Assembly: GCA_035606695.1 (NCBI GenBank)
Contig: DATNEW010000027.1
Coordinates: 62,001-126,000, forward strand
Direction: 5' to 3'
DNA from: Gemmatimonadaceae bacterium
GTDB lineage: Bacteria > Gemmatimonadota > Gemmatimonadetes > Gemmatimonadales > Gemmatimonadaceae
DNA length: 64,000 bases
A program made the translations under genes and the position numbers. Below are positions 3,911-50,640 of this stretch, piece by piece; position 1 is the stretch's first letter, and every line of letters starts with the position of its first letter. The notes under the pieces are model-generated. The model made no database searches. It worked only from the letters and a program-made list of their open reading frames with translations, and was not told where the DNA came from.

Positions 3911-3922
3911 CCGACGCCTAAA

Positions 3923-16680: not shown

Positions 16681-16757
16681 TCACTTCCGTTGGCGAAGTT
16701 TGACGCGGTGTTTTTTTATGCCGGCGGCCGAACCGCACCTGTTAATCTTAAAGGCTG

Positions 16758-23902: not shown

Positions 23903-24655
23903 TTGCCATCCGCCGCCGTTTTCATCGTCGCGCGCACCGGTTCGTCGCGGTTGCCGCGGAAGGTCCTGACACCGATTCACGAACGGCCTATCCTCGCGCG
24001 CCTCGTCGAGCGCGCGCGCCGGGCCGTCGAACCCGACGCATGGGTGCTGTGCACGACGACGGCATCATCCGACGACGAGCTCGCCGCCCTCGGCCTCGCC
24101 CTCGGGTTGCGGGTGTTTCGCGGCAGCGAGCGCGACGTCCCGGTACGGCTACGCGACGCCGCGCGCGCGACGGAGGCGGAGTTCTTCGTGCTCCTCGAGT
24201 CGGACGAGATCTTCGCCGATCCGGAATTCATCGATGCCGTCATTCGGCGGCGTCTCGAAACGGGTGCCGATTACATCGTCACACGAGGTTTGCCGATCGG
24301 CGCGTGGGTGTGCGGCATCAGCCGGCGAGCCATCGAACAGCTCTGCGCGGACCGAGCGACGGAGGCGGTCGACGGTTGGGGGGTATTTCTCGAGCGCGAC
24401 GCCCGACTGCGCACCGAATCCGTTCACACCGATTCTGCGCTCGCCGCGGCGTCCGAAGGGTTGCGTTTGACGCTCGACTACCCCGAGGATCTCGAAGTCA
24501 TTTCGGCGGTGTTCGACCGGTTGCGCGACCGAGGCGACGACTTTTCAGTGCGCGACGTCGTGGCGTTGCTGACCGCGGAGCCTGAGCTGGCGGCGCCCAA
24601 TCGCAAATTGAACGAGCAGTACTGGCAGCGAATTGAAAAAACGAGGCAATCGTGA
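23903..24655 (+). CDS. SpsF-like cytidylyltransferase-family protein
   Basis: The protein has 250 residues from a TTG start, 28 nt after the NusG-like gene. The N-terminus AVFIVARTGSSRLPRKVL is the NTP-binding loop of the CTP_transf_3 family (SpsF, CMP-KDO synthetase relatives). FFVLLESDEIFADPEFIDAV corresponds to the metal-binding region, with Glu and Asp where a D-x-D is usual. It is the only CMP-sugar-synthetase-like gene in the window, so it probably activates the nonulosonic acid made by the NeuB-like enzyme downstream. Bacillus SpsF itself is poorly characterised, so donor and product are inference. Its stop overlaps the next gene (GTGA). Confidence 0.75.
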   Translation: MPSAAVFIVARTGSSRLPRKVLTPIHERPILARLVERARRAVEPDAWVLCTTTASSDDELAALGLALGLRVFRGSERDVPVRLRDAARATEAEFFVLLESDEIFADPEFIDAVIRRRLETGADYIVTRGLPIGAWVCGISRRAIEQLCADRATEAVDGWGVFLERDARLRTESVHTDSALAAASEGLRLTLDYPEDLEVISAVFDRLRDRGDDFSVRDVVALLTAEPELAAPNRKLNEQYWQRIEKTRQS

Positions 24656-25677
24656 CTGATAAATTCCTGATCGTCGGCCTTGGCTCCATGGGCAAGCGGC
24701 GCATTCGCAACCTGCAGCATCTCGGCGCGGGTGAGCTGCTCGGGTTCGATCCGCGCGCCGATCGCCGCGCCGAGGTCGAAGCCAAGTACGGCGTGCGCTG
24801 CGTGGAGAGCTTCGAGAAAGGACTGGAATGGGGGCCTGGGGCGCTCGTCATCTCGACACCGCCCGACATGCACGTGCGCTACGCACGCGCCGCTGCCGAG
24901 AGCGGACGGCATTTCTTCACTGAAGCGAGCGTCGTCGACGACGGGCTCGCCGAGCTCGACGAGCTGGTGACGCGCGCCGGTGTGGTTGCGGCGCCCTCGT
25001 GCACGATGCGGTTTCATCCGTCGATTCGCGCCATCAAGTCGGCGATCGACGACGGGTCGATCGGTCGAGTGGTGGGACTGACGTATCACTCCGGACAGTA
25101 TTTGCCGGACTGGCATCCGTGGGAGGACATCGCGGACTACTACGTCAGCAAGCGCGAGACGGGCGGCTGCCGCGAGATCGTGCCGTTCGAGCTCACGTGG
25201 CTGACGTGGGCGCTCGGTGATGTGCGCAAGATTTCGTGCTTCCGCGGCAAGGTGTCGGATGTGCCGGCGGACATCGATGACTGGTATCAGATGCTGCTCG
25301 AGTTCGAGAGCGGCGTGCTGGGACACCTGACGGTCGACGTGGTGTCGCGCGTGGCGGTGCGCGTGTGTCGCGTCGTCGGCACCGAGGGCGTCGTGGAGTG
25401 GAGCTGGGAGGACAAGCGCGTGCGCGTGTTCCGCACGGCCGACAACGCCTGGGCCAACGTCGCCGAGCCCGAAGGGATTCGCGTCGAGGGGTATTTGCTC
25501 GCCGACGACATGTACATCGCCGAGATGGACGCGTTCGTGCGCGCGACGCGCGGACAAGCGCCGTATCCGTATACGATCGCCGAAGACCGGCGAATGCTGG
25601 AACTGTTATACGCTGCCGAGCGGAGCTCCGACGACGGCGTGCATGAAGTCACGGCACCAGCGGGAGTGAAAGCATGA
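24652..25677 (+). CDS. Gfo/Idh/MocA-family oxidoreductase with altered catalytic motif
   Basis: The protein has 341 residues from a GTG overlapping the previous stop. The N-terminal NAD(P)-binding fold (LIVGLGSMGKRRIRNL) and LVISTPPDMHVRYA are typical of the family. The conserved E-K-P motif that supplies the catalytic Lys reads E-A-S here (Glu91-Ala92-Ser93), so the usual Lys is missing. The C-terminal substrate domain has GGCREIVPFELTWLTWA. The next gene, a PLP aminotransferase, overlaps by ATGA, suggesting oxidation followed by transamination of one sugar intermediate. The substrate is unknown. The other two members in this window (32599, 46240) keep E-K-P. Confidence 0.8.
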   Translation: MTDKFLIVGLGSMGKRRIRNLQHLGAGELLGFDPRADRRAEVEAKYGVRCVESFEKGLEWGPGALVISTPPDMHVRYARAAAESGRHFFTEASVVDDGLAELDELVTRAGVVAAPSCTMRFHPSIRAIKSAIDDGSIGRVVGLTYHSGQYLPDWHPWEDIADYYVSKRETGGCREIVPFELTWLTWALGDVRKISCFRGKVSDVPADIDDWYQMLLEFESGVLGHLTVDVVSRVAVRVCRVVGTEGVVEWSWEDKRVRVFRTADNAWANVAEPEGIRVEGYLLADDMYIAEMDAFVRATRGQAPYPYTIAEDRRMLELLYAAERSSDDGVHEVTAPAGVKA

Positions 25678-27005
25678 CACACACGGATACCGCCGCGCCC
25701 GCGGCCGGGACCAAGAGCTACGAGAAGCGACTGCTGCGGGCGATTCCCGGCGGCGCGCACACCTATTCCCGCGGCTTCGATCAGTTTCCGGCAAACGCGC
25801 CCGAGATTCTGGAGCGCGGCGAAGGCGCGTACGTGTTCGATCCCGATGGCCGTCGGTATCTCGACTATGGGATGGCGTTGCGCGCCGTGATTCTCGGCTA
25901 CAGCGAGCCGCGCGTGAATCAGGCCGCGTGGCGTGCGATCGAGCAGGGGAACAATCTGACACGTCCGTCGGTGGTGGAGCTCGAAGCGGCGGAAACGCTG
26001 ATCGATCTCATCGACTCCGTCGACATGGTGAAGTTCACGAAGAACGGCTCGACCGCAACGAGCGCCGCGGTGAAGCTGGCGCGCGCGTACACGGGCCGGA
26101 CGCTCGTGGCTCGCTGTCTCGACCATCCATTTTTTTCGTATGACGACTGGTTCATCGGCTCGACGGTGATGAATCGCGGCGTGCCCGACGAGATCTCGTC
26201 GCAGACGAAGCTCTTTCGCTTCAACGATGTGGACAGCTTCGAGCGGTTGATCAAGGAATTCCCGGGGCAGATTGCGTGCGCCATGCTCGAGCCGGCGACT
26301 TCCGTGGCGCCGGAGCCGGGATACCTCGAGCGCATGCGCGAGCTGTGCTCGGCGAACGGCATCGTCCTCGTGTTCGACGAGATGATCACGGGATTCCGCT
26401 GGCACGTCAAAGGCGCGCAGCATTTCTACGGCGTGCAGCCGGATCTCTGCACGTTCGGAAAAGCGATGGCGAACGGGTTTTCGGTTGCCGCCGTGGCGGG
26501 CAAGCGCGAGATCATGGAATTGGGGTCGATCGAGCTCGAGGGACGCGAGCGCGTATTCCTTCTGTCGACGACGCACGGCGCGGAGATGTGCGGGTTGGCG
26601 GCCTTCATGGAGACCGTGCGGCTCATCGAGAGCGAAGGCGTCGTCGACCACGTGTGGCAGTACGGTCGCGATCTGCTTGCCGGCCTCAACGCGCTCGCCA
26701 AGCGACATGGTGTCGAGCAGAGCTTCGTCGCGGGCGGTGTGGAGTGCTCGCCGTACTATCTCACGCTCGATGAGCGCGGCGCCGCGTCGATGCCGCTGCG
26801 CACGCTCTTCGCGCAAGAGATGGTGAAGGGCGGAGTGCTGATGCCGTGGATCGCGCTATCCAGCGCGCACGGAGCGGCTGAGCTCACGGCGACGCTCGAC
26901 GCGGCGGACCGTGCGCTGGCGGTGTATGCCGCGGCCGTACGCGACGGCGTCGACGAATATCTCGAAGGCGAAGCGATTCGTCCGGTGTTCCGGCGATTCA
27001 ATTGA
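25674..27005 (+). CDS. Class III PLP aminotransferase (glutamate-1-semialdehyde aminomutase-like)
   Basis: The protein has 443 residues with ATGA overlap upstream. AIPGGAHTYSRGFDQFP is the N-terminal signature of the GSA aminomutase-like group. FTKNGSTATSAAVKLARAYT binds PLP phosphate, Asp235 lies in VLVFDEMITGF, and the Schiff-base Lys263 lies in TFGKAMANG. Heme-type GSA aminomutase is unlikely in this context. In glycan loci such proteins are thought to aminate keto- or aldo-sugars. Coupled to the preceding oxidoreductase and the following SDR, it may put an extra amino group on a nonulosonic acid or its precursor. That role is inferred, not known. Confidence 0.8.
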   Translation: MTHTDTAAPAAGTKSYEKRLLRAIPGGAHTYSRGFDQFPANAPEILERGEGAYVFDPDGRRYLDYGMALRAVILGYSEPRVNQAAWRAIEQGNNLTRPSVVELEAAETLIDLIDSVDMVKFTKNGSTATSAAVKLARAYTGRTLVARCLDHPFFSYDDWFIGSTVMNRGVPDEISSQTKLFRFNDVDSFERLIKEFPGQIACAMLEPATSVAPEPGYLERMRELCSANGIVLVFDEMITGFRWHVKGAQHFYGVQPDLCTFGKAMANGFSVAAVAGKREIMELGSIELEGRERVFLLSTTHGAEMCGLAAFMETVRLIESEGVVDHVWQYGRDLLAGLNALAKRHGVEQSFVAGGVECSPYYLTLDERGAASMPLRTLFAQEMVKGGVLMPWIALSSAHGAAELTATLDAADRALAVYAAAVRDGVDEYLEGEAIRPVFRRFN

Positions 27006-27784
27006 GCGCGATGCTGCTCGACGGAAAAGTCGTGGTGGTTGCCGGGGGCGCGGGGCTGCTGGGCAAAGCCTTCACGTCCGGCATCGTGCGGCACGGCGCC
27101 ACCGCGATCGTCGCGGACGCGTCGGAAGAGCGCGGCGTTGCGGTGTGCAATGAATTGCGCGCGGCCACGCCTGCCGCGCGCGTGGAGTACGTGCGTCTCG
27201 ACATCACCAACGCGGACTCGATCGTGGCCGCGATTGAGCGCATCGCGTCCAGACACGGACGAATCGATGCGCTGGTGAATACGGCGTATCCGCGCAACGC
27301 GCGATACGGGCGCCACGTCGAGGACGTGACGTACGAAGACTTCTCCGAGAACGTCTCGGTGCATCTCGGCGGATACTTTCACACGACGAAGCATTTCGGC
27401 AAATACTTTCGCGAGCGGGGAGCGGGCAACATCGTGAGTCTTGGCTCGATCTACGGGGTCGTCGCGCCGAGATTCGAGATCTATGAAGGCACGCCGATGA
27501 CGACGCCGGTCGAATACGCGGCGATCAAATCGGGCGTCATTCATCTCACGCGGTATTTCGCGCGCTACTATCGCTCGGCGGGCGTGCGCGTGAACTGCAT
27601 CAGCCCCGGCGGCATCAAGGATCGGCAACCCGAATCGTTCGTCGCGCGGTACTCGCAACACGCCGCGAACGGTGACTTGCTGCAGCCGAACGACGTGGTG
27701 GGAACGCTCGTGTTTTTGCTCTCCGATCTGTCGGCGGCGATCACCGGACAGAATCTCGTGGTCGACGCGGGGTGGACGCTATGA
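27002..27784 (+). CDS. Short-chain dehydrogenase/reductase
   Basis: The protein has 260 residues if the TTG at 27002 (overlapping the previous stop) is used, or 257 from the ATG at 27011. It has a glycine-rich cofactor loop VVVAGGAGLLGKAF, the NTAYPRNARYG region, SLGSIYGVVAP with the catalytic Ser, and VEYAAIKSG with the Y-x-x-x-K pair. It is a complete SDR fold ending GQNLVVDAGWTL. SDR genes sit beside neuB/neuC-type genes in Campylobacter ptm-type legionaminic acid loci, where their exact role is not settled. The stop overlaps the neuB-like start. Confidence 0.85.
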   Translation: MSAMLLDGKVVVVAGGAGLLGKAFTSGIVRHGATAIVADASEERGVAVCNELRAATPAARVEYVRLDITNADSIVAAIERIASRHGRIDALVNTAYPRNARYGRHVEDVTYEDFSENVSVHLGGYFHTTKHFGKYFRERGAGNIVSLGSIYGVVAPRFEIYEGTPMTTPVEYAAIKSGVIHLTRYFARYYRSAGVRVNCISPGGIKDRQPESFVARYSQHAANGDLLQPNDVVGTLVFLLSDLSAAITGQNLVVDAGWTL

Positions 27785-28827
27785 GCGTTGCCGTCGGAAC
27801 CCGGCGTATCGGTGATGGTGCGCCCTGTTACGTGATCGCCGAGGCCGGCGTGAACCACAACGGGGATGCCGAGCTCGCGCATCGGCTGGTGGACATCGCG
27901 GCCGACGCGGGCGCGGACGCGGTGAAGTTTCAGACGTTCGATCCCGATCTGCTCGCGAGTCCCGGCGCCGTGAAGGCGGATTATCAGATCGAGAATACCG
28001 GAACGGGCGGCTCGCAGCACGAAATGCTGATGGCGCTCACGCTACCGCGTTCGGTCTTCGCGGACCTGGCGCGCCATGCGACCGAGCGACGGATCGAGTT
28101 TCTCTCGACGCCGTTCGATCTGAACAGCGCGGACCTCCTGGCCGACATCGGCGTGAGCGCGTTCAAGATCGGATCGGGTGAGGTGACGAACCATCCTTTT
28201 CTCGCGCGGTTGGCGGGTTTCGGTCGTCCGCTGTTGCTCTCGACGGGCATGAGCACGCTCGACGAGGTCGTCGCCGCGGTCGGCGTGATTCAGCGCTCGG
28301 GCAATCCGCCGCTCGCGCTCTTTCACTGCGTCACGAGCTATCCCGTCGATGCCGCGGCGTGCAACCTGCGCGCGATGCAGACGCTGCGCGACCGATTCCG
28401 CGTGCCGGTGGGGTGGAGCGATCACACCGTCGGCGGAGTCGTGAGTATCGCGGCGGTGGCGTTGGGGGCGGAGTTGATCGAGAAGCATTTCACCGTCGAT
28501 CGCACGTTGCCGGGGCCGGATCACGCGGCGTCGCTCGAGCCGGACGAGCTGCGCACGCTCGTCGCCGACATTCGCTCGACGGAATCCGCGCTGGGCGACG
28601 GCCGCAAGGTGCCGGCGGCGTGTGAATTAGGAATCTCTAAAGTCGCGCGGCGCAGCCTGCACTTCAGCGGCAATCTGCCGGCGGGGCACGCGGTGCGGCC
28701 GAATGATCTCGTGGCGCTGCGGCCGGCAACGGGTTTGTCGCCCGCGCTGCACGACCAGCTCGTGGGTCGAGTGTTGCGCGTCGACGTCGCGCGCGGCGAC
28801 ATCGTTCGCGAGGACCAGCTTGTCTGA
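27781..28827 (+). CDS. neuB: N-acylneuraminate / nonulosonic acid synthase (NeuB/LegI family)
   Basis: The protein has 348 residues; the ATG overlaps the SDR stop. The TIM barrel has EAGVNHNGDAELAHRLVD, DAVKFQTFDPD, FKIGSGEVTNHPFL and FHCVTSYPVD. These are followed by VGWSDHTVGG and EKHFTVDRTLPGPDH, the PEP- and metal-binding landmarks. A C-terminal SAF (antifreeze-like) domain begins around GISKVARRSLHFSGNL. The enzyme condenses PEP with a ManNAc-type six-carbon sugar to make a nine-carbon 2-keto acid. The LegB- and LegC-like genes at 34522 and 35531 point to a legionaminic rather than sialic acid substrate. Confidence 0.92.
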   Translation: MSVAVGTRRIGDGAPCYVIAEAGVNHNGDAELAHRLVDIAADAGADAVKFQTFDPDLLASPGAVKADYQIENTGTGGSQHEMLMALTLPRSVFADLARHATERRIEFLSTPFDLNSADLLADIGVSAFKIGSGEVTNHPFLARLAGFGRPLLLSTGMSTLDEVVAAVGVIQRSGNPPLALFHCVTSYPVDAAACNLRAMQTLRDRFRVPVGWSDHTVGGVVSIAAVALGAELIEKHFTVDRTLPGPDHAASLEPDELRTLVADIRSTESALGDGRKVPAACELGISKVARRSLHFSGNLPAGHAVRPNDLVALRPATGLSPALHDQLVGRVLRVDVARGDIVREDQLV

Positions 28828-29974
28828 GCTGCGACGACTTGCGGTGCTCACCACGGGCCGGCAGGACTACGGCATCCTGCGCAGCACGCTCGAGCTGCTC
28901 GGCGAAACTGGTCAACCGGACGTCGCGCTGTGGGCGGGCGGCATGCTGCTGAGCGAGCGATTCGGTCGCGCGATCGATCTCGTGCGCGCGGATGGACTGA
29001 CGGTGAGCCGGGAACTGCCGTTCGTCTCGGATCCGCCGGACCAGACGCGCGACACGGCGCGTGCGCTCGCCGCCGTTGGCGACGCGTTGGCTGAAGACCG
29101 GCCGGACGCGCTGATGTTGGTGGGCGACCGCTATGAAACCGCCGCGGCTGCGATCGCCGCGACGCTCGCCCGCGTACCGATCGTGCATTTGCACGGCGGC
29201 GAAGAAACCGAAGGCGCGATCGACAACGCGTTTCGGCATGCGATCACGAAGCTCAGCCACCTACATCTCGTGAGTCATCCGGCGTACGCGGCGCGCGTGC
29301 GGCAGATGGGCGAGCCGGATGCGAGCGTGATCATCGTTGGATCGCCGGGAACGGACAACCTCTATCGCGACGATCTGCCGTCGATCGCGGATCTCGAGAA
29401 GCGGCTGGGCCGCGCGCTGACGCCACCCATCGTGCTGGTAACGATGCATCCCACCACGCTCGGCGGCGATCCGCGGGCCGAGACGAACGCGGTTGCGGAA
29501 GCGATGGCGCGGGTAAACGCGACGTACGTGATCACGGCACCGAATACCGATACGGGCGGAACAGCGATCGACGACGTGTGGCGCGCATGGACGGCGCCTC
29601 GCGCGAACGCGCTCTATGTCGATGCGCTCGGCGCGACGAATTATTGGGCGCTGCTGCGCGCGACCGCGGCGGTGCTGGGGAATTCGTCGAGCGGCATTCT
29701 CGAGGCGCCGTCGGCGGGCGTGCCGGTCGTGAACGTCGGCGATCGTCAACAGGGGCGAATTCGCATGGGGTGGGTGCGCGACGTTCCGGCGGAGACGGAC
29801 CGAATCGAAGCGGCGTTGCGCGAAGCGTTGGCCGCGGGCGCGCCCGAACGCGCGAGCGGGCGCGGCGGCGCGGACGTTCCGCGCGGACCGGTCGCGCCGC
29901 GCATCGTTGATGCGCTCCGCGCGTGGGACCTGCCATGTCCGCCGCGAAAGCGTTTTGTGGAGCGCGTGCCATGA
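28820..29974 (+). CDS. neuC: NDP-GlcNAc 2-epimerase, hydrolysing (NeuC/LegG family)
   Basis: The protein has 384 residues from a TTG at 28820 that overlaps the neuB-like stop by eight bases; no better start is visible before LAVLTTGRQDYGILR. Family motifs include LMLVGDRYETAAAA, HLHGGEETEGAIDNAFRHAI, VGSPGTDNL and GNSSSGILEAPSAGVPVVN. These enzymes epimerise and hydrolyse UDP- or GDP-linked GlcNAc derivatives to ManNAc-type sugars that feed NeuB. Its place between the NeuB-like gene and a CBS-nucleotidyltransferase mirrors the Campylobacter legionaminic acid order, where GDP-linked intermediates are used. Confidence 0.9.
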   Translation: MSELRRLAVLTTGRQDYGILRSTLELLGETGQPDVALWAGGMLLSERFGRAIDLVRADGLTVSRELPFVSDPPDQTRDTARALAAVGDALAEDRPDALMLVGDRYETAAAAIAATLARVPIVHLHGGEETEGAIDNAFRHAITKLSHLHLVSHPAYAARVRQMGEPDASVIIVGSPGTDNLYRDDLPSIADLEKRLGRALTPPIVLVTMHPTTLGGDPRAETNAVAEAMARVNATYVITAPNTDTGGTAIDDVWRAWTAPRANALYVDALGATNYWALLRATAAVLGNSSSGILEAPSAGVPVVNVGDRQQGRIRMGWVRDVPAETDRIEAALREALAAGAPERASGRGGADVPRGPVAPRIVDALRAWDLPCPPRKRFVERVP

Positions 29975-31029
29975 GGTGGAGCAAGGAGCTGGATACCGGA
30001 TTGTCGAACCTATGTGTCCGAAACACCGCCACGCTGTTCGAGGCGCTGCAGGCCATCGACAGCGGCGCCGAGTCGATCGTGTTCGTGTGCGATGAGAGTG
30101 GAAAGATCATTGGATCGCTCTCGGACGGCGATGTTCGCCGCGCGCTGCTTTCGGGTGCGGCGCTCTCGGACTCCTGCCTCGAACGCGTGATGAATCGCCA
30201 GTTCGCGTGGGTGACGCCGTCCGCGGGTCGTGCGGAGGTGTTGGACATCATGCGCGCGCGCGACGTCGGACAGTTGCCGGTGCTCGACGAACACGGGCGG
30301 TTGTGCGGGCTTCACACCGTCGGTCAGATCATGTCGGCGGCGCACCGCACGAATGCCGCGGTGATTCTCGCCGGCGGTCGCGGCACGCGGCTGCATCCGC
30401 TTACGGAGACTGTGCCGAAGCCGATGGTGACCGTCGCGGGCCGGCCGATCCTCGAGCGGTTGGTGTTGCATCTCATGAGTTGCGGGATTCGCACGATCTA
30501 CATCTCGGTGAATTATCTGGCGCACGTCATCGAGGAGCATTTCGGCGACGGATCGCGCTTCGGCTGCCGCATCGAATATCTGCGCGAAGACCAACCGCTT
30601 GGCACCGGCGGGCCGTTGGCGCTCGTGAAGGATCGCGTCAGCGAGCCCGTCGTCGTGATGAACGGCGATCTCGTGACGCAGTGCGACGTGGGGGCGATGC
30701 TCGACTTTCACACGCAGGGCGGCTACACGGTGAGCATGGGATTGCGGCGGTACTGCTTCACGGTGCCGTTCGGCGTCGCGCGCGTGCAGGGTGAGCGGTT
30801 GCGGGAATTGATCGAGAAGCCGACGGAGCGAGAGTTGATCAACGCCGGCGTGTACGTGCTGTCGCCGGAGGTGTTGCAGCACATTCCGCGTGGCCGTGAG
30901 TATCCGATCACGGAGTTGTTCAACTATTGCCTGCGCGAAGCACTGCCCGCGGGCGCGTTCCTGATCGAAGAAGAGTGGGTGGACGTGGGCCAGCATCATG
31001 AACTGCAGCGCGCGCGCGGCGAGCAGTGA
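29971..31029 (+). CDS. CBS-domain sugar nucleotidyltransferase (PtmE-like)
   Basis: The protein has 352 residues with ATGA overlap. Two CBS motifs fill residues 1-120 (SIVFVCDESGKIIGSLSDGD and RDVGQLPVLDEHGRLCG). They are followed by a nucleotidyltransferase with ILAGGRGTRLHP (132-143), VPKPMV around Lys150, VMNGDLVTQCDV and LGTGGPLAL. This architecture is that of Campylobacter PtmE, a glucosamine-1-phosphate guanylyltransferase that opens the GDP-linked legionaminic acid route. Guanylyl specificity here is inferred from architecture and neighbours. The stop codon is the first base triplet of an 8-bp tandem repeat. Confidence 0.85.
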   Translation: MRWSKELDTGLSNLCVRNTATLFEALQAIDSGAESIVFVCDESGKIIGSLSDGDVRRALLSGAALSDSCLERVMNRQFAWVTPSAGRAEVLDIMRARDVGQLPVLDEHGRLCGLHTVGQIMSAAHRTNAAVILAGGRGTRLHPLTETVPKPMVTVAGRPILERLVLHLMSCGIRTIYISVNYLAHVIEEHFGDGSRFGCRIEYLREDQPLGTGGPLALVKDRVSEPVVVMNGDLVTQCDVGAMLDFHTQGGYTVSMGLRRYCFTVPFGVARVQGERLRELIEKPTERELINAGVYVLSPEVLQHIPRGREYPITELFNYCLREALPAGAFLIEEEWVDVGQHHELQRARGEQ

Positions 31030-31066
31030 CCTCGTGACCTCGTGACCTCGTGACCTCGTGACGTCG
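31027..31066 (+). repeat. 8-bp tandem repeat across a gene junction
   Basis: Four exact copies of tgacctcg and one variant (tgacgtcg) run back to back for 40 bases. The first copy contains the TGA stop of the nucleotidyltransferase gene, and the array ends directly before the ATG at 31067. Because 8 is not a multiple of 3, copy-number change would move the alternative GTG starts in the array in and out of frame and change the spacing for translational coupling. Confidence 0.9.
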
Positions 31067-32602
31067 ATGGCGCCGCGACGCGTGCTGCTCATGATCAATT
31101 GGTCCGCGCACTACACGGAGCTGGTGCGCGCGGCGCGATTGCTCGTCGAGTCGTCGCGATACGAGCCCGTGGTGATGTTCGCGCGGTCGTACCCGGGATT
31201 CGAGCGCGACATGGCGGCGAGCATTGCCGAAGGTTTCGTGACGCTCGGCTTCGACGGAGCGGTAGTGCGCTCGGCGCCGGCGGTGTCGACGGCGCCGCCA
31301 GCCGCGGAAGCGCCGAATGACTTCGACGCGGGCCCGTCACGCGGGCTGACCGCGCGCGCCAAAGGACTGCTGCTGACGATCGCCGGCTACCGGCGCGATG
31401 ACACGCTGCTGGCGGCGCCGGCGAGGACGCTCGCGATTCGGCGGCGGTTGCGCCACGCGCGACAGGTGCTCGCGCGCGAAAACATCTCGGCGTTGCTCCT
31501 GGCGAGCGACGACGTCGGCGCCGACACGGCGGAGTGGATTCGCGCGGCACATGGGCGCGGCGCTCCGGCCATCATTCTGCCGTTCACGATCGTGAAGCCG
31601 GGCGGGATCGCCGACGAATTGTACGTGCAGCGCGCGCACCAGCTCGAGACTCGAAGCAATCGGTTGGTGGCGAGATTCTTTCCGCGCTGGGCTCACGACC
31701 ATCATGGTCGCCGGCTGCTGCGGTTGCCGAGCGCGCGTGTCCTGGCGAAGGAAGTGACGCGGACGGCGCCGCCCGATCCCTGGCAGTGGAACAGCGGAGC
31801 GGCGGACGCGATCGCGCTCGAGAGCGAGTATGCCCGAGCGCATTACCGCTCCGCGGGATTTCCCGAACAGCAACTCGTTGTGACCGGCGCGCTGTTTTCC
31901 GATACGCTGGCGGGGGCGATCGCGAGCGCGTCCCAGCGGCGTGCCGCGTTAGGAGAGCAGTTCAACGTCGATCCGGCGCGTCCGCTCGCCGTGTTCGCGC
32001 TGCCGGGCGATCTATTCGGCGCGCTGCGACATCAGCCGGATTTTCGCGACTATCGCGAGATGATCGAGTTCGTCGTCGCGACGCTGCGCGCACTCGGCGC
32101 CGAAGTGCTGATTCGCCCGCATCCGTGCGACGACCTCGCCGCGCTCGACGGCATCGAAGCGACCGGCGCGCGCATCACCGACGTCGATACCGCCTTGCTC
32201 GTTCCGCTTTGCGATGTCTTTGTCACCAGTGCGTCGGCCACGCTGCGCTGGGCCGTGGCGTGCGGCAAGCCCGCGCTCAACTTCGATCTCTTCCGCAGCC
32301 GGTTCGACTATCTGGCGGCGCCGGGAACCGTCGCGGTTGAAACGAAGGAAGAATTCATCGATGCTGCATCGCGCTGGCTGGGCGATCGGTCGGCGCTCGC
32401 GGCCGCGGCAACCGCGCAGAAAGACGTGAGTGATCGCTGGGGTGCGTTGGACGGGCAGTGCGGCGCACGCGTCCTCGCGCTCTTCGATCGCCTCGTGCGC
32501 GAGCCGATGGCGCGCGAACCGATGGCGCGCGAGCGCGCGGCGGCCGTATCGAACCACACCTCCGCGGTGCTGCGGAGCGAACCACATACGAGGCACTCAT
32601 GA
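31067..32602 (+). CDS. GT-B-fold surface carbohydrate biosynthesis protein (unknown activity)
   Basis: The protein has about 511 residues from the ATG at 31067; a GTG at 31058 inside the tandem repeat is possible. The protein looks like a two-domain GT-B or epimerase-like fold: an N-terminal Rossmann start (RRVLLMINWSAHYTELVRAA), then a second half with LAVFALPGDLFGALRH, EVLIRPHPCDDLAALD and CDVFVTSASATLRWAVACGK. The last is a nucleotide-sugar or polyprenol-binding-like Ser/Thr-rich loop common in capsule transferases. No catalytic family can be named. The C-terminus contains REPMAREPMARER, from a 15-bp DNA repeat (about 32499-32534). Position next to NeuB/NeuC genes makes it a candidate nonulosonic-acid transferase. 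Confidence 0.6.
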   Translation: MAPRRVLLMINWSAHYTELVRAARLLVESSRYEPVVMFARSYPGFERDMAASIAEGFVTLGFDGAVVRSAPAVSTAPPAAEAPNDFDAGPSRGLTARAKGLLLTIAGYRRDDTLLAAPARTLAIRRRLRHARQVLARENISALLLASDDVGADTAEWIRAAHGRGAPAIILPFTIVKPGGIADELYVQRAHQLETRSNRLVARFFPRWAHDHHGRRLLRLPSARVLAKEVTRTAPPDPWQWNSGAADAIALESEYARAHYRSAGFPEQQLVVTGALFSDTLAGAIASASQRRAALGEQFNVDPARPLAVFALPGDLFGALRHQPDFRDYREMIEFVVATLRALGAEVLIRPHPCDDLAALDGIEATGARITDVDTALLVPLCDVFVTSASATLRWAVACGKPALNFDLFRSRFDYLAAPGTVAVETKEEFIDAASRWLGDRSALAAAATAQKDVSDRWGALDGQCGARVLALFDRLVREPMAREPMARERAAAVSNHTSAVLRSEPHTRHS

Positions 32603-33612
32603 AGGCGGCAGTGATCGGCGTTGGACGCATGGGACGACGACATGCCGCGGTGCTCCGCGGCATGGGCTTCGACATTGCCGGCGTCAGCGATCCGAGTGAG
32701 GCGGCTTTGGAAGCGGCGCGCACCGAGCTTGGGCTCGAGTCAGAGAACTTGTATCGCGATCCCGCGCAGCTGCTCACGTCGACGTCTCCGGAGGCCGTGG
32801 TGATTGCCACGACCGCCGACTGCCACGCACCGCTCACGTTGCGGGCGGTGCTGGCCGGCGCGCGTTACGTGCTGTGCGAGAAGCCGATGGCGGTCTCGCT
32901 CGCTGAATGCGACGCGATGATCGCGGCGTGCAAGGAGCGTGACGTGCGCCTGGCGATCAACCATCAGCGTCGCTACATGCCCCAGTTCGAGGTAGCGCGC
33001 GACATCGTCGAATCGCCCGAGTTCGGTGGTTTGCGCGGCATGACGGTCGTCGCCGGGAACATGGGACTCGCGATGAACGGCAGCCACTTCCTCGAGATCT
33101 TCATGCATTGGACGGGTGAGACGCCGCGCACGATCGCGGCGTCGTTCTCCGACGTGGAAGTTCCGAATCCGCGCGGCGCACAATTCCGCGACGCGTCCGG
33201 ATTCCTGCGCGTGACGACCGCCTCGGGACGGCGGTTGACGATCGATGCCGAAGCGGACGCCGGTCACGGGCTGTTGAGTGTCTACATGGGACACAACGGC
33301 CAACTCGTCGTGGACGAGCTCACGGGCGTTGCCACGACGGAAATCCGAACATCGGAACAGCGCGGGCGTCCGACAACGTTGTACGGCCTTCCCGCCGAAG
33401 GGTCGCGCCAGCAATTCACCGCGGATCTCAATGTTGCGATCCGCGCGCTGTGGGAGCGACTGCTTGCCGGCGAGAGCGTGCCGAGCGGCGAGGATTCCCG
33501 CCGCGTGATCGAATGTCTGGTCACGGCGTATGTGTCACATGAGCGCGGCGGCGTGCCGGTCGCGTTCGATCCATCGTCGTTGCCGCGCGAGCGTCGATTT
33601 GCCTGGGCCTGA
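32599..33612 (+). CDS. Gfo/Idh/MocA-family oxidoreductase
   Basis: The protein has 337 residues; the ATG overlaps the previous stop. The NAD(P) loop AAVIGVGRMGRRHAAVL and the intact YVLCEKPMAVSLAECDAMI, with the catalytic Lys of E-K-P, are present, followed by AINHQRRYMPQFEVARDIVE. It is a canonical member, unlike the one at 24652. It may oxidise or reduce an NDP-sugar or a nonulosonic acid precursor. It is followed by a 65-base gap holding five 14-bp tandem repeats before the formyltransferase gene. Confidence 0.82.
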   Translation: MKAAVIGVGRMGRRHAAVLRGMGFDIAGVSDPSEAALEAARTELGLESENLYRDPAQLLTSTSPEAVVIATTADCHAPLTLRAVLAGARYVLCEKPMAVSLAECDAMIAACKERDVRLAINHQRRYMPQFEVARDIVESPEFGGLRGMTVVAGNMGLAMNGSHFLEIFMHWTGETPRTIAASFSDVEVPNPRGAQFRDASGFLRVTTASGRRLTIDAEADAGHGLLSVYMGHNGQLVVDELTGVATTEIRTSEQRGRPTTLYGLPAEGSRQQFTADLNVAIRALWERLLAGESVPSGEDSRRVIECLVTAYVSHERGGVPVAFDPSSLPRERRFAWA

Positions 33613-33620
33613 CCGCCGCC

Positions 33621-33690
33621 GATGCCGGCGATCCGATGCCGGCGATCCGATGCCGGTGATCCGATGCGGGTGATCCGATGCGGGTGATCT
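33621..33690 (+). repeat. 14-bp tandem repeat overlapping the formyltransferase start codon
   Basis: Five head-to-tail 14-bp units read gatgccggcgatcc twice, gatgccggtgatcc, gatgcgggtgatcc and gatgcgggtgatct. Each contains an ATG. The ATG of the fifth unit (33678) is the real start of the formyltransferase; the four upstream ATGs lead to short out-of-frame or stopped frames. The gradient of substitutions suggests duplication outward from the gene start. Confidence 0.9.
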
Positions 33691-34499
33691 TCATGGGTCG
33701 CAAGCCGGCGGCGTCCGCGGCGTTGCGCAAGCTCGTGGCGTCGGGCGCTGACGTTGTCGCCGTCGTGGCGCCGATGCCTCCCGACGAGCCGTTGAGTGCG
33801 ACATTCTGGCGTCCGCTCCTGCACGACACCGCGAGCGAGCTGGGTTTGACGACGGTGCGAGACACGGCGCTCTACGAGAGCATCGACGCACTACAGGCCG
33901 GCCGCGATCCCGCGATCGACCTGCGCGACATCGACCTCGTCATTTCGTTTCTGTTCTGGAAGAAGATCCGCCGGCCGCTGATCGAGCTGCCGCGTATCGG
34001 CTGCTTCAACTTTCATCCGGGACCACTGCCGGAGTTTCGCGGCCGTCGCGGATACAATCACGCGATTCTCGAGGACTACGCCGAATACGGCGCGAGCCTG
34101 CACTGGGTATCCGAAGGTGTCGACCTCGGTGACGTGGTGAGCGTGAAGCATTTCCCGATTCGCCCGGACGATACGGCACTGTCCCTCGAGCGGCGCACGA
34201 TGGGCTGTCTCCTGGACATGTTCGACGAGTTCATCACACAGCTCCGGGCTGATGTGCCGCTGCCGCGTATTCCGCAGGGACCGGGGAAGTCGGCGACGAA
34301 GAAAGAGTTGCTCGCGGCGATGCGTGTGTCGCCGGACGACGACGCGGAAACGCTTGCGCGGAAGGTGCGGGCATTCTGGTACCCGCCTCATACGGGCGCG
34401 ACGATCGAGATTGGCGGCACGGAATTCACCCTCGTCGACGCGAACACACTCGACAAACTTGGCCGCTTCCTGCACGGCAGTGAGCCGGACGCGTGGTGA
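33678..34499 (+). CDS. Sugar N-formyltransferase (Fmt/ArnA-N family)
   Basis: The protein has 273 residues. The ATG lies in the last unit of the tandem repeat. The N10-formyl-THF-dependent formyltransferase core shows FNFHPGPLPEFRGRRGYN with Asn111 and His113, and SEGVDLGDVV with Asp149, the complete catalytic triad. The family includes Met-tRNA formyltransferase, but the length and context favour sugar enzymes such as VioF or ArnA, which formylate a 4-amino-4,6-dideoxy sugar. It lies directly before LegB- and LegC-like genes, at the place where an N-acetyltransferase (LegH) would be expected. N-formylation of the LegC product is therefore the best guess. Confidence 0.85.
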   Translation: MRVIFMGRKPAASAALRKLVASGADVVAVVAPMPPDEPLSATFWRPLLHDTASELGLTTVRDTALYESIDALQAGRDPAIDLRDIDLVISFLFWKKIRRPLIELPRIGCFNFHPGPLPEFRGRRGYNHAILEDYAEYGASLHWVSEGVDLGDVVSVKHFPIRPDDTALSLERRTMGCLLDMFDEFITQLRADVPLPRIPQGPGKSATKKELLAAMRVSPDDDAETLARKVRAFWYPPHTGATIEIGGTEFTLVDANTLDKLGRFLHGSEPDAW

Positions 34500-34521
34500 A
34501 GCGTGGTAAGTTCCTATCCGC

Positions 34522-35541
34522 ATGCTCATGAGTAGAACCTCTTCGAACGCGCCATTGCGCGGCGTCAAAGTCCTCGTCACCGGTGCGGATGGCTTCATCG
34601 GAAGCCACCTCACCGAAGCGCTCGTGCGCGAGGGCGCGGACGTGCGCGCGATGTGTTTCTACAACTCGAATGGCTCCGCGGGTTGGCTCGATCAGAGCGG
34701 GGACGACATTCGCGCGGCGATCGACGTTCGGCTGGGCGACGTCCGCGACGCGCGCTGGGTGGAAGCGGTCTGCGAGGACGTCGAGATCGTGTTTCATCTC
34801 GCGGCGCTGATCGCGATTCCCTACAGCTACACCGCACCGGAGTCGTTCGTCGACACGAACGTCCGCGGTACGCTCAACATGCTGGAAGCGGTGCGCCGCG
34901 CCGGGTGCGCGCGGCTGATTCAGACCTCGACCAGCGAAGTCTACGGCACGCCGGATTCACTGCCGATCCGCGAGTCGCATCCCCTCAAGGGACAATCGCC
35001 CTATAGCGCCACGAAAATCGCCGCGGACAAGTTGTGTGAGGCGTACTTCAGTTCATTCGGCACTCCGGTGGTGACGCTGCGACCGTTCAACACGTACGGC
35101 CCGCGTCAATCGGCACGCGCCGTGATTCCCACCATCCTCTCTCAGCTCCTTGCAGGCCAGCGCGTCATTCGACTCGGCAACCTGAAACCGCGGCGCGATC
35201 TCACGTTCGTCAGCGACACGGTGGCCGGCTTCGTCGCGGCAGCGCGCGCGACGGACGTCAACGGCGAGACGATCCAACTCGGTACCGGACGCGCCGAGTC
35301 GGTCGGCGACGTCTTCGCGGCGGCGTGCAAAGTGTGTGGCGTGGATGCCACCGTGGAGCAGGACACCGCGCGGCTTCGCCCCGATCGCAGCGAGGTCATG
35401 GTCCTGCAATCCGATCCGTCGTTCGCGAGCGAGCGTCTCGGTTGGCAAGCGGCGGTGGGATTGGAGGACGGCCTGGCGCAGACCGCCGAATGGATTGAGC
35501 GGAATCTCGCGTCGTACTCGCCCGAGTGTTATGCGGTCTGA
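34522..35541 (+). CDS. legB: NDP-GlcNAc 4,6-dehydratase, LegB-like
   Basis: The protein has 339 residues. It is an extended SDR with VLVTGADGFIGSHL (Gly-rich loop 21-27), CFYNSNGSAGWLD (45-57, a LegB-type fingerprint), TSTSEVYG (135-142) and YSATK with Tyr161 and Lys165. It also has LRPFNTYGPRQSARAVIPTI. LegB removes water from UDP- or GDP-GlcNAc to give the 4-keto-6-deoxy intermediate of legionaminic acid synthesis. It is followed by the LegC-like aminotransferase with an 11-base overlap. GDP specificity is inferred from the PtmE-like gene. Confidence 0.85.
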   Translation: MLMSRTSSNAPLRGVKVLVTGADGFIGSHLTEALVREGADVRAMCFYNSNGSAGWLDQSGDDIRAAIDVRLGDVRDARWVEAVCEDVEIVFHLAALIAIPYSYTAPESFVDTNVRGTLNMLEAVRRAGCARLIQTSTSEVYGTPDSLPIRESHPLKGQSPYSATKIAADKLCEAYFSSFGTPVVTLRPFNTYGPRQSARAVIPTILSQLLAGQRVIRLGNLKPRRDLTFVSDTVAGFVAAARATDVNGETIQLGTGRAESVGDVFAAACKVCGVDATVEQDTARLRPDRSEVMVLQSDPSFASERLGWQAAVGLEDGLAQTAEWIERNLASYSPECYAV

Positions 35542-36760
35542 GAGTCGCGAGCCCGGCGCGCCGGTCGCGGCGGGCGGTATTCCGCTGTGCGTGCCTCATC
35601 TGGCGGGGAACGAGTGGACGTACGTGCGAGAGTGTCTCGACACGAATTTCGTTTCTTCGGTCGGACCATTCGTTCGGCGATTCGAGACCGAGCTCGCACA
35701 GCGCGTGGGTGCACGCTTCGGCATCGCGACGTCGACGGGAACCGCGGCGCTGCATGTCGCGCTGCTCGTGGCGGGCGTCGAGCGCGATGATGAAGTGCTC
35801 GTGTCGTCGCTGACGTTCATCGCGCCGGTGAACTCGATTCGATACGCGGGTGCGTGGCCCGTGTTCATCGACGCGGAGCCGAAGCATTGGCAGATGGATC
35901 CGGCACAGGTCGCGCGGTTCCTCGAGCAGGAGTGCGTGGAGCGCGACGGCGTCGTGCGCAACCGCGTGACGGGCCGGCGGGTGCGGGCGATTCTGCCGGT
36001 GCACATTCTGGGACATCCGGTCGACATGGATCCGATTCTGGCGCTCGCGAAGCGGTACGGGCTCGCCGTGATCGAGGACGCAACCGAGAGTCTCGGCGCG
36101 ACGTACAAGGGAATTCCGACGGGGCACATCGCCGACGCGGGGTGCTTCAGCTTCAACGGCAACAAGCTGATCACGAGCGGCGGCGGCGGGATGGTGGTGA
36201 CCGACAACGCGGCCATGGCCGAGCGCGCGAAGTATTTGACGACGCAAGCGAAGGACGACGCCGTGGAGTTCATCCACGGCGAGGTCGGCTACAACTATCG
36301 GCTGACGAACGTGCAGGCGGCGCTCGGTGTGGCGCAGCTGGAGCAGGTGGACGCGTATCTCGCGGCCAAGCGACGTATCGCGACGCGATATGTAGACGGA
36401 CTACATGATGTAGCCGGCATCACGACGCCGACCGAAGCGCCGTGGGCGCGCAGCGCGTGGTGGTTGTTCTCGGTGATCGTGGCCGATGAGGAATTTGGAA
36501 TGAGCAGTCGTGATCTCATGCGCGCGCTCGACGAGCGCGGCATTCAGACGCGGCCGCTGTGGCAGCCCGTGCATCTGTCGCCGGCGCATCGTGATGCACA
36601 GCGCCGGAGCTGTCCGGTGGCGGAGGAGCTCAACCGAACGGTTCTCAGCCTGCCGTGCTCCGTTGGACTCACGGATGCGGAGCAGGAGCGCGTCATCGAC
36701 GCCATCACGACGCTCGCGTCGGGCGCCCACCGCACGCGGGCCGCTGCCGCGGCGCGGTGA
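35531..36760 (+). CDS. legC: PLP aminotransferase, LegC-like (DegT/DnrJ/EryC1 family)
   Basis: The protein has 409 residues; the ATG at 35531 lies inside the end of legB. VPHLAGNEWTYVRECLDTNF VSSVG opens the LegC group. TGTAALHVALLV binds PLP, ILPVHILGHPVDMDPI is present, and the Schiff-base Lys212 is in FSFNGNKLITSGGGG. It transfers an amino group from Glu to C4 of the NDP-4-keto-6-deoxy-GlcNAc, the nitrogen that ends up at C7 of the nonulosonic acid. With the upstream formyltransferase it predicts an N-formyl group at that position. Confidence 0.85.
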   Translation: MRSESREPGAPVAAGGIPLCVPHLAGNEWTYVRECLDTNFVSSVGPFVRRFETELAQRVGARFGIATSTGTAALHVALLVAGVERDDEVLVSSLTFIAPVNSIRYAGAWPVFIDAEPKHWQMDPAQVARFLEQECVERDGVVRNRVTGRRVRAILPVHILGHPVDMDPILALAKRYGLAVIEDATESLGATYKGIPTGHIADAGCFSFNGNKLITSGGGGMVVTDNAAMAERAKYLTTQAKDDAVEFIHGEVGYNYRLTNVQAALGVAQLEQVDAYLAAKRRIATRYVDGLHDVAGITTPTEAPWARSAWWLFSVIVADEEFGMSSRDLMRALDERGIQTRPLWQPVHLSPAHRDAQRRSCPVAEELNRTVLSLPCSVGLTDAEQERVIDAITTLASGAHRTRAAAAAR

Positions 36761-36773
36761 GCGGGATCTGTTC

Positions 36774-37643
36774 ATGACGACGGATTTGCATTTCCCAACG
36801 CCGCCGGCCGACGTGCCGATGACCGGACCAACGCTCGTGATCGGCCCAGGCAATCGACGCGGGCTGATCGACGCGGCGGAGCTCTGGAGCTATCGCGACC
36901 TCGCGCTCTTTCTCATCTGGCGCGACGTCAAGGCGCGCTACGCGCAGAGCATCCTGGGCATTGGCTGGGCGATCATCCAGCCGCTCTTCACCATGCTGGT
37001 GTTCACGGTGGTGTTCGGGCGGGTCGCGCGGGTGCCGTCCGACGGGTTGCCCTATTCGCTGTTCAGTTTCGCGGCGCTGGTGCCGTGGACGTTTTTCTCA
37101 ACCTCGTTGACGGCGGCCACGGATAGTCTCGTGACCGCGTCGGCGATGATCTCGAAAGTATACTTCCCGCGCATCATTCTTCCGATCACCGCGGTGCTCG
37201 GCAAGGGAGTGGATCTCGCGATCGCGCTCGCGATGCTCGCGGCGATGATGGGGTACTACCGAATCGCGCCGACGCGTTGGGCGGTGATCGTGCCGTTGCT
37301 TCTCGTGCTCGCGGCGTTGGCGGCGACGGGACTGGGACTGTGGCTGACGGCGCTGGCCGCGCAGTACCGCGACGTGAAGTACGCGGTTGGTCTGGTCGTG
37401 CAGCTCATGATGTACGCGGCGCCGGTGGTGTATCCGGTGAGCCTCATCCCCGCGCGGTACCGGCTCGCGTATGCGATCAATCCCATGGTCGGCGTGATCG
37501 AAGGCATGCGGACAACGTTGTTGCGCACGGGCAACGTGCCGTGGGACTTGATCGTCGTCGGCACGGTGTCGGCGCTCGTCTTCGTGGTGACGGGCGCGGC
37601 GTATTTCCGCCGCAAGGAGCCCACACTGACGGACGTGCTTTGA
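36774..37643 (+). CDS. wzm: Polysaccharide ABC exporter permease (Wzm/TagG family)
   Basis: The protein has 289 residues from the ATG at 36774. YRDLALFLIWRDVKARYAQS and LGIGWAIIQPLFTMLVFTVVFG are the N-terminal signature of ABC-2 polysaccharide permeases, followed by six membrane helices. It exports complete polymer or lipid-linked glycan across the inner membrane together with the ATPase encoded next. Stop and start interlock (TGATG at 37641-37645). Its presence means that an ABC-transporter-dependent glycan is encoded beside the Wzx/Wzy machinery. Confidence 0.92.
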   Translation: MTTDLHFPTPPADVPMTGPTLVIGPGNRRGLIDAAELWSYRDLALFLIWRDVKARYAQSILGIGWAIIQPLFTMLVFTVVFGRVARVPSDGLPYSLFSFAALVPWTFFSTSLTAATDSLVTASAMISKVYFPRIILPITAVLGKGVDLAIALAMLAAMMGYYRIAPTRWAVIVPLLLVLAALAATGLGLWLTALAAQYRDVKYAVGLVVQLMMYAAPVVYPVSLIPARYRLAYAINPMVGVIEGMRTTLLRTGNVPWDLIVVGTVSALVFVVTGAAYFRRKEPTLTDVL

Positions 37644-38965
37644 TGTCGCACGTCGTGATCAGGGCGGAAGGCCTTTCCAAGTCGTATCGCATCGGGCTCG
37701 AGGAAAAGCGGCCGGACACGCTAGTCGGTCGCATGACGAGCCTCGCCCGCAAACCGATCGACAATCTGCGCTCGCTGCGCCGGCTCACGCGCACCGGCGA
37801 CGAGGCGCCTGACATCGTGTGGGCGCTGCGCGATGCAAGCTTCGACGTTCGCCAGGGCGAAGTCGTGGGGCTCATCGGCCGCAATGGCGCGGGAAAGAGC
37901 ACGCTGCTCAAGATCCTCTCGCGCATCACCGCGCCGACGACCGGATCCGCCACCGTGCACGGTCGCGTGGGCTCGCTGCTCGAGGTGGGAACGGGGTTTC
38001 ACCCTGAACTGACCGGCCGCGACAACGTGTTTCTCAACGGCGCGATTCTCGGCATGAGCCGCGCCGAGATCGCGCGGCAGTTCGACGAGATCGTGAGCTT
38101 TGCGGGAGTCGAGCGGTTCATCGACACGCCGGTGAAGCGCTACTCCAGCGGCATGTATCTGCGCCTCGCGTTCGCGGTGGCGGCGCATCTCAATCCCGAA
38201 ATTCTGATCGTGGACGAAGTGCTCGCGGTCGGCGACCTCGAGTTTCAGAAGAAGTGCTTGGGGAAGATGAGCGACGTCGCGCGCGGCGGACGCACGGTGC
38301 TCTTCGTATCGCACAACATGGCGGCGGTCCAGCGATTGTGCAGCCGGACGATCCTGCTGCACAACGGAACGATTCACCGCGACGGGGATACGCAGTCGGT
38401 CGTCGGTGAGTATCTCGGACTCGGGATGGATCGCCACGGCGAGCGCCGATGGGACGATCCGCGCACCGCGCCGCACGACGACGTCGTGGCGCTCCGCGCC
38501 GTCCGCGCGTTCGACTCCGGCGGCCGAGTGACGTCGAGCTTTCGCTTGCAGGAAGAGATTCTGCTCGAAGTGGAGTTCGCGATCGCGCGCCCGCAGCCGC
38601 TCAACGTCAACCTGTTCGTGTACGACGCGTCGGGGAATCTGCTGTTCGTCATCGGCGACTTTCAGACCGACGAATGGCAGGGTCGTCCGCGACCGGCAGG
38701 TATCCATCGCAGCCGCTGCCGCATTCCGGCGAACCTGCTCAACGAGGGCATGATTCGCATTCTCGTTGGGCTGGTAACGCCGCCGGCAACGCTGCGCGCG
38801 ATGGAAGAAGACGCGCTCACGCTCGCGTTGCTCGATGACGGCCGAGCCGAGGGCGCGCGTGGTTTTTATCCAGCCTCCTGGCCTGGGGGCGCCATCCGGC
38901 CGCTCGTCAGTTGGGAGTTCGAGTATGTTCAAGACGATCAACCGGCACACTCAGGAATTGTTTGA
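37643..38965 (+). CDS. wzt: Polysaccharide ABC exporter ATPase with C-terminal Wzt-like domain
   Basis: The protein has 440 residues. Walker A GRNGAGKST lies at 79-87, Walker B ILIVDE at 187-192 with LAVGDLEFQKKC, and a YSSGMYLRLAFA signature in place of LSGGQ, as usual for Wzt/TagH. Residues after about 250 form an extra beta-sandwich domain (LLEVEFAIARPQPLNVNLFV, HRSRCRIPANLLNEG) like the carbohydrate-binding domain of E. coli O8/O9a Wzt. That domain recognises the terminal modification of finished O-antigen. A chain-end modification, perhaps methyl or carbamoyl, is therefore expected. The stop overlaps the next methyltransferase gene. Confidence 0.92.
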   Translation: MSHVVIRAEGLSKSYRIGLEEKRPDTLVGRMTSLARKPIDNLRSLRRLTRTGDEAPDIVWALRDASFDVRQGEVVGLIGRNGAGKSTLLKILSRITAPTTGSATVHGRVGSLLEVGTGFHPELTGRDNVFLNGAILGMSRAEIARQFDEIVSFAGVERFIDTPVKRYSSGMYLRLAFAVAAHLNPEILIVDEVLAVGDLEFQKKCLGKMSDVARGGRTVLFVSHNMAAVQRLCSRTILLHNGTIHRDGDTQSVVGEYLGLGMDRHGERRWDDPRTAPHDDVVALRAVRAFDSGGRVTSSFRLQEEILLEVEFAIARPQPLNVNLFVYDASGNLLFVIGDFQTDEWQGRPRPAGIHRSRCRIPANLLNEGMIRILVGLVTPPATLRAMEEDALTLALLDDGRAEGARGFYPASWPGGAIRPLVSWEFEYVQDDQPAHSGIV

Positions 38966-49324: not shown

Positions 49325-49418
49325 GCTGGGCGGAACGGCCCTCGCCCCTACGGGGTTCAGCCGCTAAGTTGTTTATTTTAGGGCACCTGAGGGTGCCGCG
49401 CCCCGTATTAATCCATTG
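49325..49418 (+). other. 94-bp gap with a short hairpin inside the tightly packed operon
   Basis: Most genes in this operon overlap, but here 94 bases separate hisH from the amidotransferase gene. The gap has an AT-rich tract (ttgtttatttta, about 49370-49381) and a 6-bp hairpin ggcacc-tgag-ggtgcc (49382-49397). It could be an internal promoter plus leader hairpin, or a pause site. No T-run follows, so it is not a standard terminator. Confidence 0.3.
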
Positions 49419-50612: not shown

Positions 50613-50640
50613 TCGCGGCCGACGCGGTTCGAGTCGCGCG

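Follow-up and report, generated by a model that had tools for sequence, protein, structure and literature searches.

The stretch analysed here (the window) comprises 64,000 nucleotides of a 5.9 Mb Gemmatimonadaceae bacterium genome (assembly GCA_035606695.1, contig DATNEW010000027.1, here C27, positions 62001-126000). It contains a legionaminic acid (leg)-type operon at 23903-36760, in which all genes lie on the plus strand with short or overlapping junctions, and the genes of an ATP-binding cassette (ABC) exporter come next downstream. LegB and LegC, a NeuC-type epimerase, a NeuB-type synthase and a cytidine monophosphate (CMP) transferase, the set expected of a legionaminic acid operon, were all recognised by family profiles (Table 1). 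Directly before legB-legC lies a gene for a formyltransferase-family protein that we call FT1; 22 nt separate its end from the called start of legB, and legB and legC overlap. An initial annotation, made from the sequence alone, had described NeuB, NeuC, PtmE-like, LegB and LegC genes with a formyltransferase at this place. The family profiles and coordinates bear this out and the leg-type operon with a formyltransferase is confirmed, but its true start is further upstream, at 23903 rather than 27781. We consider it probable that this operon makes a 7-N-formyl legionaminic-type acid, with FT1 formylating the 4-amine of the LegC product.

FT1 belongs to PF00551 (62.4 bits vs. a cut-off of 26.1). 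Its catalytic residues Asn111, His113 and Asp149, which the initial annotation had read as intact, are indeed so and are invariant across all aligned relatives. The genome has four PF00551 loci, two of them inside this cluster, and FT1 is therefore not a chance match. NCBIfam gave it no specific name, every match being far below cut-off. An AlphaFold (AF2) model of FT1 (predicted local distance difference test 87.4, predicted template modelling score 0.83) was compared with sugar formyltransferase structures, as had been proposed, and its best match was the perosamine 4-N-formyltransferase WbkC with guanosine diphosphate (GDP)-perosamine (Z-score 24.4, root-mean-square deviation 2.2 over 231 residues; range of deviations across the sugar N-formyltransferase matches, 2.2-4.0). 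ArnA scored 23.4 and Fmt 22.4. Since Fmt comes so near to WbkC and ArnA, the substrate of FT1 cannot be told from its fold by itself, which would also allow other amine acceptors. A profile of FT1 and its relatives also had WbkC as its best match in the PDB (4.5e-33), followed by Fmt, 4nv1, PseJ and ArnA. Because the structural and profile comparisons both lead to WbkC, FT1 is most likely a sugar 4-N-formyltransferase.

In the window, a hidden Markov model of the NeuD/PglD hexapeptide enzymes, built from related operons, gave only weak Rossmann matches in six frames, and no GNAT or hexapeptide domain occurs in the genes compared with Pfam, a set reaching from the operon as far as 61.7 kb. A PseH model, the sole model used for GNATs genome-wide, had zero matches in the window and none above cut-off in the genome. 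The earlier statement that the window has no LegH/PseH-type acetyltransferase thus holds, and can be extended to NeuD. Standard leg clusters include LegH or a NeuD/PglD-type N-acetyltransferase for the 4-amine; neither was found in the window, which has FT1 instead, and we therefore class the operon as a variant of the pathway.

About 15 related operons have a NeuD/PglD-type hexapeptide acyltransferase near neuB or neuC. Among clusters of the same class selected by their NeuB, it lies beside or near these genes in L092, L094, L095, L096, L097 and L100, and is present as a broken frame in L093; among NeuB-selected plasmid clusters, it is near them in L152-L154, L156 and L158-L162. L103 has neither a formyltransferase nor a hexapeptide enzyme, a FemAB/GNAT-like protein being found there, and in L151 the sole hexapeptide match is weak and is accompanied by a GNAT. 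An FT1-type gene is missing from all of these clusters (L092-L097, L100, L103, L151-L154, L156 and L158-L162). The tally left out L090 and L091, where the cluster is cut by the contig end, and L098, L099, L101 and L102, which have a different layout. A formyltransferase without a hexapeptide enzyme was found in two NeuB-selected plasmid clusters, those of Azospirillum lipoferum AZO_p6 and Halorussus caseinilyticus.

AZO_p6 is the strongest parallel to the window operon. The two share identities of 54% for NeuB, 44% for LegC, 50% for the Gfo/Idh protein encoded one gene before FT1 and 40% over 143 aa for the formyltransferase. AZO_p6 also carries neuC, a homologue of the 514-aa protein at 31058 (35% over 490 aa) and, at another place on the plasmid, PtmE; NeuD was not found on it. 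In the Omnitrophota genome G394, the formyltransferase (56%), NeuB, LegB, LegC and PtmE are scattered across contigs, the formyltransferase and neuB lying apart, and the genome yielded no full-length NeuD and no PseH. Two further homologues, in L006 and on the viral contig L107, adjoin 4-aminotransferases with no NeuB, and point to the aminotransferase product as the substrate.

Other matches were set aside. The Caulobacterales loci retrieved with FT1 (L007-L022) mostly encode proteins of about 190 aa outside nonulosonic acid clusters and are probably PurN; the G024 match is a true Fmt with a deformylase-like neighbour; that of G056 has no nonulosonic acid neighbours; that of Fusobacterium has no leg operon around it; and G399 (L010/L051) has a LegC and NeuD cluster unrelated to its distant formyltransferase. 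A separate NeuD in G517 adjoins flagellin genes, not a formyltransferase. Searches of viral contigs and phages found formyltransferase homologues beside aminotransferases on phage-like contigs and no leg operon. Among these, L107 (58 kb) has aminotransferase, FT1-like formyltransferase and epimerase/dehydratase genes at 3722-6554, which suggests a phage-encoded formylated sugar. On a Labrenzia plasmid, L114 8866-11680 holds a formyltransferase, a PIG-L deacetylase and a DegT aminotransferase in a row, possibly a deacetylate-then-formylate cassette.

The scheme that we favour for the window operon is as follows. On intermediates that are nucleotide-linked, probably to GDP, LegB would make the 4-keto sugar and LegC would aminate C4. 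FT1 would then move a formyl group from N10-formyl-tetrahydrofolate onto the resulting 4-amine, a reaction that in most related operons falls to an acetyltransferase of the NeuD/PglD type (or LegH). NeuC would release 2-acetamido-4-formamido-2,4,6-trideoxymannose, NeuB would condense it with phosphoenolpyruvate and the cytidylyltransferase would activate the product, predicted to be Leg5Ac7Fo (5-acetamido-7-formamido legionaminic acid) or one of its epimers. The N5 acetamido group could further be converted to acetamidino by the HisH/WbuX/HisF2 enzymes encoded downstream. This proposal draws on features present in the sequence: the gene set, the intact formyltransferase site, the lack of an acetyltransferase nearby and formyltransferase genes that recur in nonulosonic acid clusters. 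From these we infer the substrate, the N7 position, how the steps follow one another and the amidination, N7 being the simpler reading because the formyltransferase is the sole acyltransferase in the window. The initial annotation had likewise put formyl in place of acetyl at the future N7; a sugar N-formyltransferase family member in the acyltransferase slot, the missing NeuD and the recurrence in AZO_p6 agree with that replacement, while the position itself stays a prediction.

Table 1. Genes of the leg-type operon and associated features (positions in the window)
Feature	Position	Strand	Evidence or remark
Cytidylyltransferase, CMP-nonulosonate synthetase-like (LegF/PtmB role)	23903..24655	+	PF02348 61.9 bits, cut-off 22.6
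Gfo/Idh/MocA oxidoreductase	24652..25677	+	PF22725/PF01408; putative PtmF-like role
Class III aminotransferase, putative pathway member	25674..27005	+	NF004856 674 bits, cut-off 486
PtmA-like short-chain dehydrogenase/reductase (SDR)	27002..27784	+	NF050062 PtmA 230 bits (below cut-off 350); NF006619 320 (over 255)
NeuB/LegI nonulosonate synthase	27781..28827	+	TIGR03569 402.7 bits, cut-off 399.65
NeuC/LegG hydrolysing 2-epimerase	~28844..29974	+	TIGR03568 324, cut-off 236; PF02350
PtmE-like CBS + sugar-1-phosphate nucleotidyltransferase (GDP-N-acetylglucosamine route)	29935..31029	+	CBS, NTP_transferase domains
514-aa protein, candidate glycosyltransferase	31058..32602	+	35% identical homologue in AZO_p6 nonulosonic acid cluster
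Second Gfo/Idh/MocA oxidoreductase	32599..33612	+	PF01408; 50% identical homologue adjoins formyltransferase in AZO_p6
FT1, predicted sugar N-formyltransferase	33678..34499	+	PF00551; N111/H113/D149; AF2 model matching WbkC
LegB nucleoside diphosphate-N-acetylglucosamine 4,6-dehydratase	34522..35541	+	TIGR04180 416 bits, best family by far, below 475 cut-off
LegC 4-aminotransferase	35531..36760	+	TIGR04181 462.5, cut-off 420; PDB 3bn1 perosamine synthetase 1.7e-83
ABC-2 permease + ATPase (polysaccharide export)	36774..38965	+	PF01061, PF00005
HisH + WbuX amidotransferase + AglZ/HisF2, acetamidino module	48692..51402	+	TIGR03573, NF038364 over cut-off

Several genes of the operon have counterparts in related leg operons. 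LegB is 48-56% identical to the LegB of such operons, the kind of Gfo/Idh/MocA gene near the upstream end of ours occurs in related operons as well, and a PtmE-like gene was found in every genome with both a formyltransferase and NeuB that was checked for it. The 514-aa protein had no match in Pfam or NCBIfam scans and is a candidate nonulosonic acid glycosyltransferase. Two features were absent from the initial annotation. The amidination module raises the possibility that the same polymer carries an amidinated sugar, HisH, WbuX and HisF2 possibly acting on the legionaminic-type sugar. The other is a second PF00551 open reading frame (40736-41518), which runs into the gene of a DegT aminotransferase (41515-42669); its product has Thr instead of the catalytic Asn (GGITSHPSILP) and is therefore possibly inactive or capable of other chemistry.

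Several observations weigh against FT1 simply taking the place of NeuD and acting at N7. A second Omnitrophota genome, G592, has a LegB-LegC-NeuC-[X]-NeuB-PtmE-cytidine triphosphate transferase-SDR operon, with the same ABC genes adjoining legB-legC as in the window (ATPase 55% identical). Its gene X (L120 17426-18904) encodes a 493-aa protein in which an FT1-like domain is followed by a complete PglD_N plus hexapeptide domain. The gene separates neuC from neuB and so takes the place usual for the acyltransferase, often occupied by NeuD on its own, which in itself speaks for our reading. That the two domains are fused, however, strongly indicates that formylation and acetylation serve a single pathway. 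G339 has NeuD and a relative of FT1 within one polysaccharide cluster. The formyltransferase therefore does not always replace NeuD. The cluster of the haloarchaeon Halorubrum sp. PV6 also holds both, in the order NeuC(1049)-FT(1050)-NeuD(1051)-NeuB(1053), where FT is the formyltransferase, as in the neuC-[FT-NeuD]-neuB arrangement of G592, and its sugar was called 5-N-formyl-legionaminic acid (PMC6137143); by our computation, the published mass increment of about 302.1 Da corresponds to one acetyl plus one formyl. This pairing of formyltransferase and NeuD is absent from the window and present in G592 as a fusion. Such facts fit a system that, when it has both enzymes, may formylate N5 and acetylate N7. 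The formyltransferase and the hexapeptide enzyme do avoid each other across clusters (one-sided Fisher p 0.038 and 0.029, small samples), a result that is only supportive because the clusters are few, not independent and partly related. Lastly, the genome search for LegH/PseH homologues that had been recommended found no PseH above cut-off but did turn up a NeuD-like hexapeptide protein, its PglD_N domain not recognised, at C27:142424-143026 (137 bits vs. the NeuD cut-off of 160.8); in L074 it was noted at 16430-17095 (C27:142430-143095). Its gene lies 45 kb downstream of legC in a different operon, beside AMP-ligase and methyltransferase genes. Outside the operon, this protein is the chief candidate for a LegH role.

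The nonulosonic acid cluster on the Halorussus caseinilyticus plasmid (L155 7110-12018) holds two genes of the formyltransferase family, and its neuB and neuC are separated by a PIG-L deacetylase gene. The formyltransferase beside NeuB is 31% identical to FT1, a more distant relative. This layout suggests deacetylation, then formylation.

Three other accounts of FT1 have to be considered. If it formylated the C2 amine of a glucosamine intermediate, the future N5, and the unlinked NeuD-like enzyme acetylated N7, the product would be 5-N-formyl legionaminic acid. Such a route is in line with the Halorubrum sugar, its mass increment and its G592-like gene order (PMC6137143), with the grouping of formyltransferase, PIG-L deacetylase, NeuB and NeuC in Halorussus, and with the NeuD-like gene at C27:142424; the G592 fusion, the Halorussus PIG-L and the Halorubrum product give N5 some weight. 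We nevertheless think it unlikely for the window, where FT1 directly precedes legB-legC in an operon that lacks NeuD and no PIG-L deacetylase motif occurs, either there or in the flanks read; nor was any full-length NeuD found in G394 or on AZO_p6. We give slightly less credence to the idea that the usual 5,7-di-N-acetyl legionaminic acid is made by way of an unlinked acetyltransferase, with FT1 inactive or a minor modifier. The NeuD-like gene is on the same contig and the genome's GNATs were covered by the PseH model only, not exhaustively, but the distance, neighbours and sub-threshold score of that gene argue against it, as do the intact catalytic triad and fold of FT1. Marginally less probable again is that FT1 acts on a different amino sugar of the same polysaccharide, such as the one made by the DegT enzyme at 41515-42669, its place before legB-legC being functionally meaningless. 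The window does have this second 4-aminotransferase-like gene and many glycosyltransferases, and FT1 relatives accompany a LegC-like gene with no NeuB in G339, G395 and viral contigs; however, a separate formyltransferase-like gene already overlaps that of the second aminotransferase as its partner, and FT1 relatives recur beside neuB and LegC in AZO_p6 and G592. Formylation of the LegC product by FT1 thus remains our preferred explanation.

The novelty of the finding is smaller than the initial annotation implied, because formylated nonulosonic acids and candidate formyltransferases in leg clusters have been published. N-formyl groups at C5/C7 of pseudaminic and legionaminic acids are chemically known (PMC6388019), a sugar of the Pse5Ac7Fo type (Pse, pseudaminic acid) is on record (PMC3210612) and the candidate formyltransferase in the Halorubrum leg cluster has been described (PMC6137143). 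A literature search on Leg5Ac7Fo, Pse5Ac7Fo and PseJ returned only structure papers on 7-formamido nonulosonic acids, and no description of 5-acetamidino-7-formamido legionaminic acid was found. What appears to be new is a bacterial leg operon in which a formyltransferase stands in for NeuD, the fact that this arrangement, so far little studied, recurs across several distant lineages, and the fusion of the two enzymes. More tentatively, and as less likely than not, we suggest a class of leg operons extending across phyla and domains, in which a dedicated N-formyltransferase replaces NeuD or is fused to it, the product here being 5-acetamidino-7-formamido legionaminic acid and the fusion being bifunctional.

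Nonulosonic acids are found on cell surfaces, and their N-acyl groups alter what recognises them. An FT1-type gene in a leg operon would serve as a genome marker predicting formyl variants, and these operons would give bacterial models for a sugar described together with its genes, as far as we found, only in a haloarchaeon. The G592 fusion, if the proposal is true, would combine formyl and acetyl transfer in one enzyme that determines the N-acyl groups of a single sugar, and which amine receives the formyl group could be tested directly with one purified protein.

In pseudaminic acid synthesis, the formyltransferase PseJ stands in place of an acetyltransferase. FT1 resembles PseJ, for which structures have been solved (PDB 6ci2/6ci4/6edk), in being a PF00551 protein of a nonulosonic acid pathway (profile match 1e-24). 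PseJ, however, is shorter (192-217 aa) and acts in the L-altro pathway of pseudaminic acid, whereas FT1 sits with LegB/LegC, its neighbours scoring as LegB, LegC, NeuC and NeuB and not as PseB, PseC or PseI, and is closer by profile to WbkC, Fmt and 4nv1. With WbkC (PDB 5vyr-5vyu) it shares a near full-length fold, the catalytic Asn-His-Asp and the GDP-4-amino-4,6-dideoxyhexose class of substrate, but only about 22% identity, and WbkC makes N-formylperosamine for O-antigen rather than a nonulosonic acid precursor. In related leg operons and plasmid clusters, the pathway slot of FT1 is taken by NeuD/PglD (TIGR03570), an enzyme that has a hexapeptide fold, uses an acyl donor such as acetyl-CoA and has no homology to FT1, although one natural fusion joins both. 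A comparable exchange is that of fmt3 for fdtC in the Geobacillus flagellin island, where formyl for acetyl was inferred from a formyltransferase in an acetyltransferase locus, but in a 3-amino-deoxyhexose rather than a nonulosonic acid pathway (PMC5109656). Halorubrum sp. PV6 likewise groups LegB, LegC, NeuC, NeuB and a cytidylyltransferase in a single cluster with HrrPV6_1050, its candidate formyltransferase (Zaretsky et al. 2018, PMC6137143). In the archaeal cluster, NeuD lies beside the formyltransferase and the formyl group was assigned to N5 (PMC6137143), whereas the window operon lacks NeuD and has PtmE, PtmA and Gfo genes and a class III aminotransferase.

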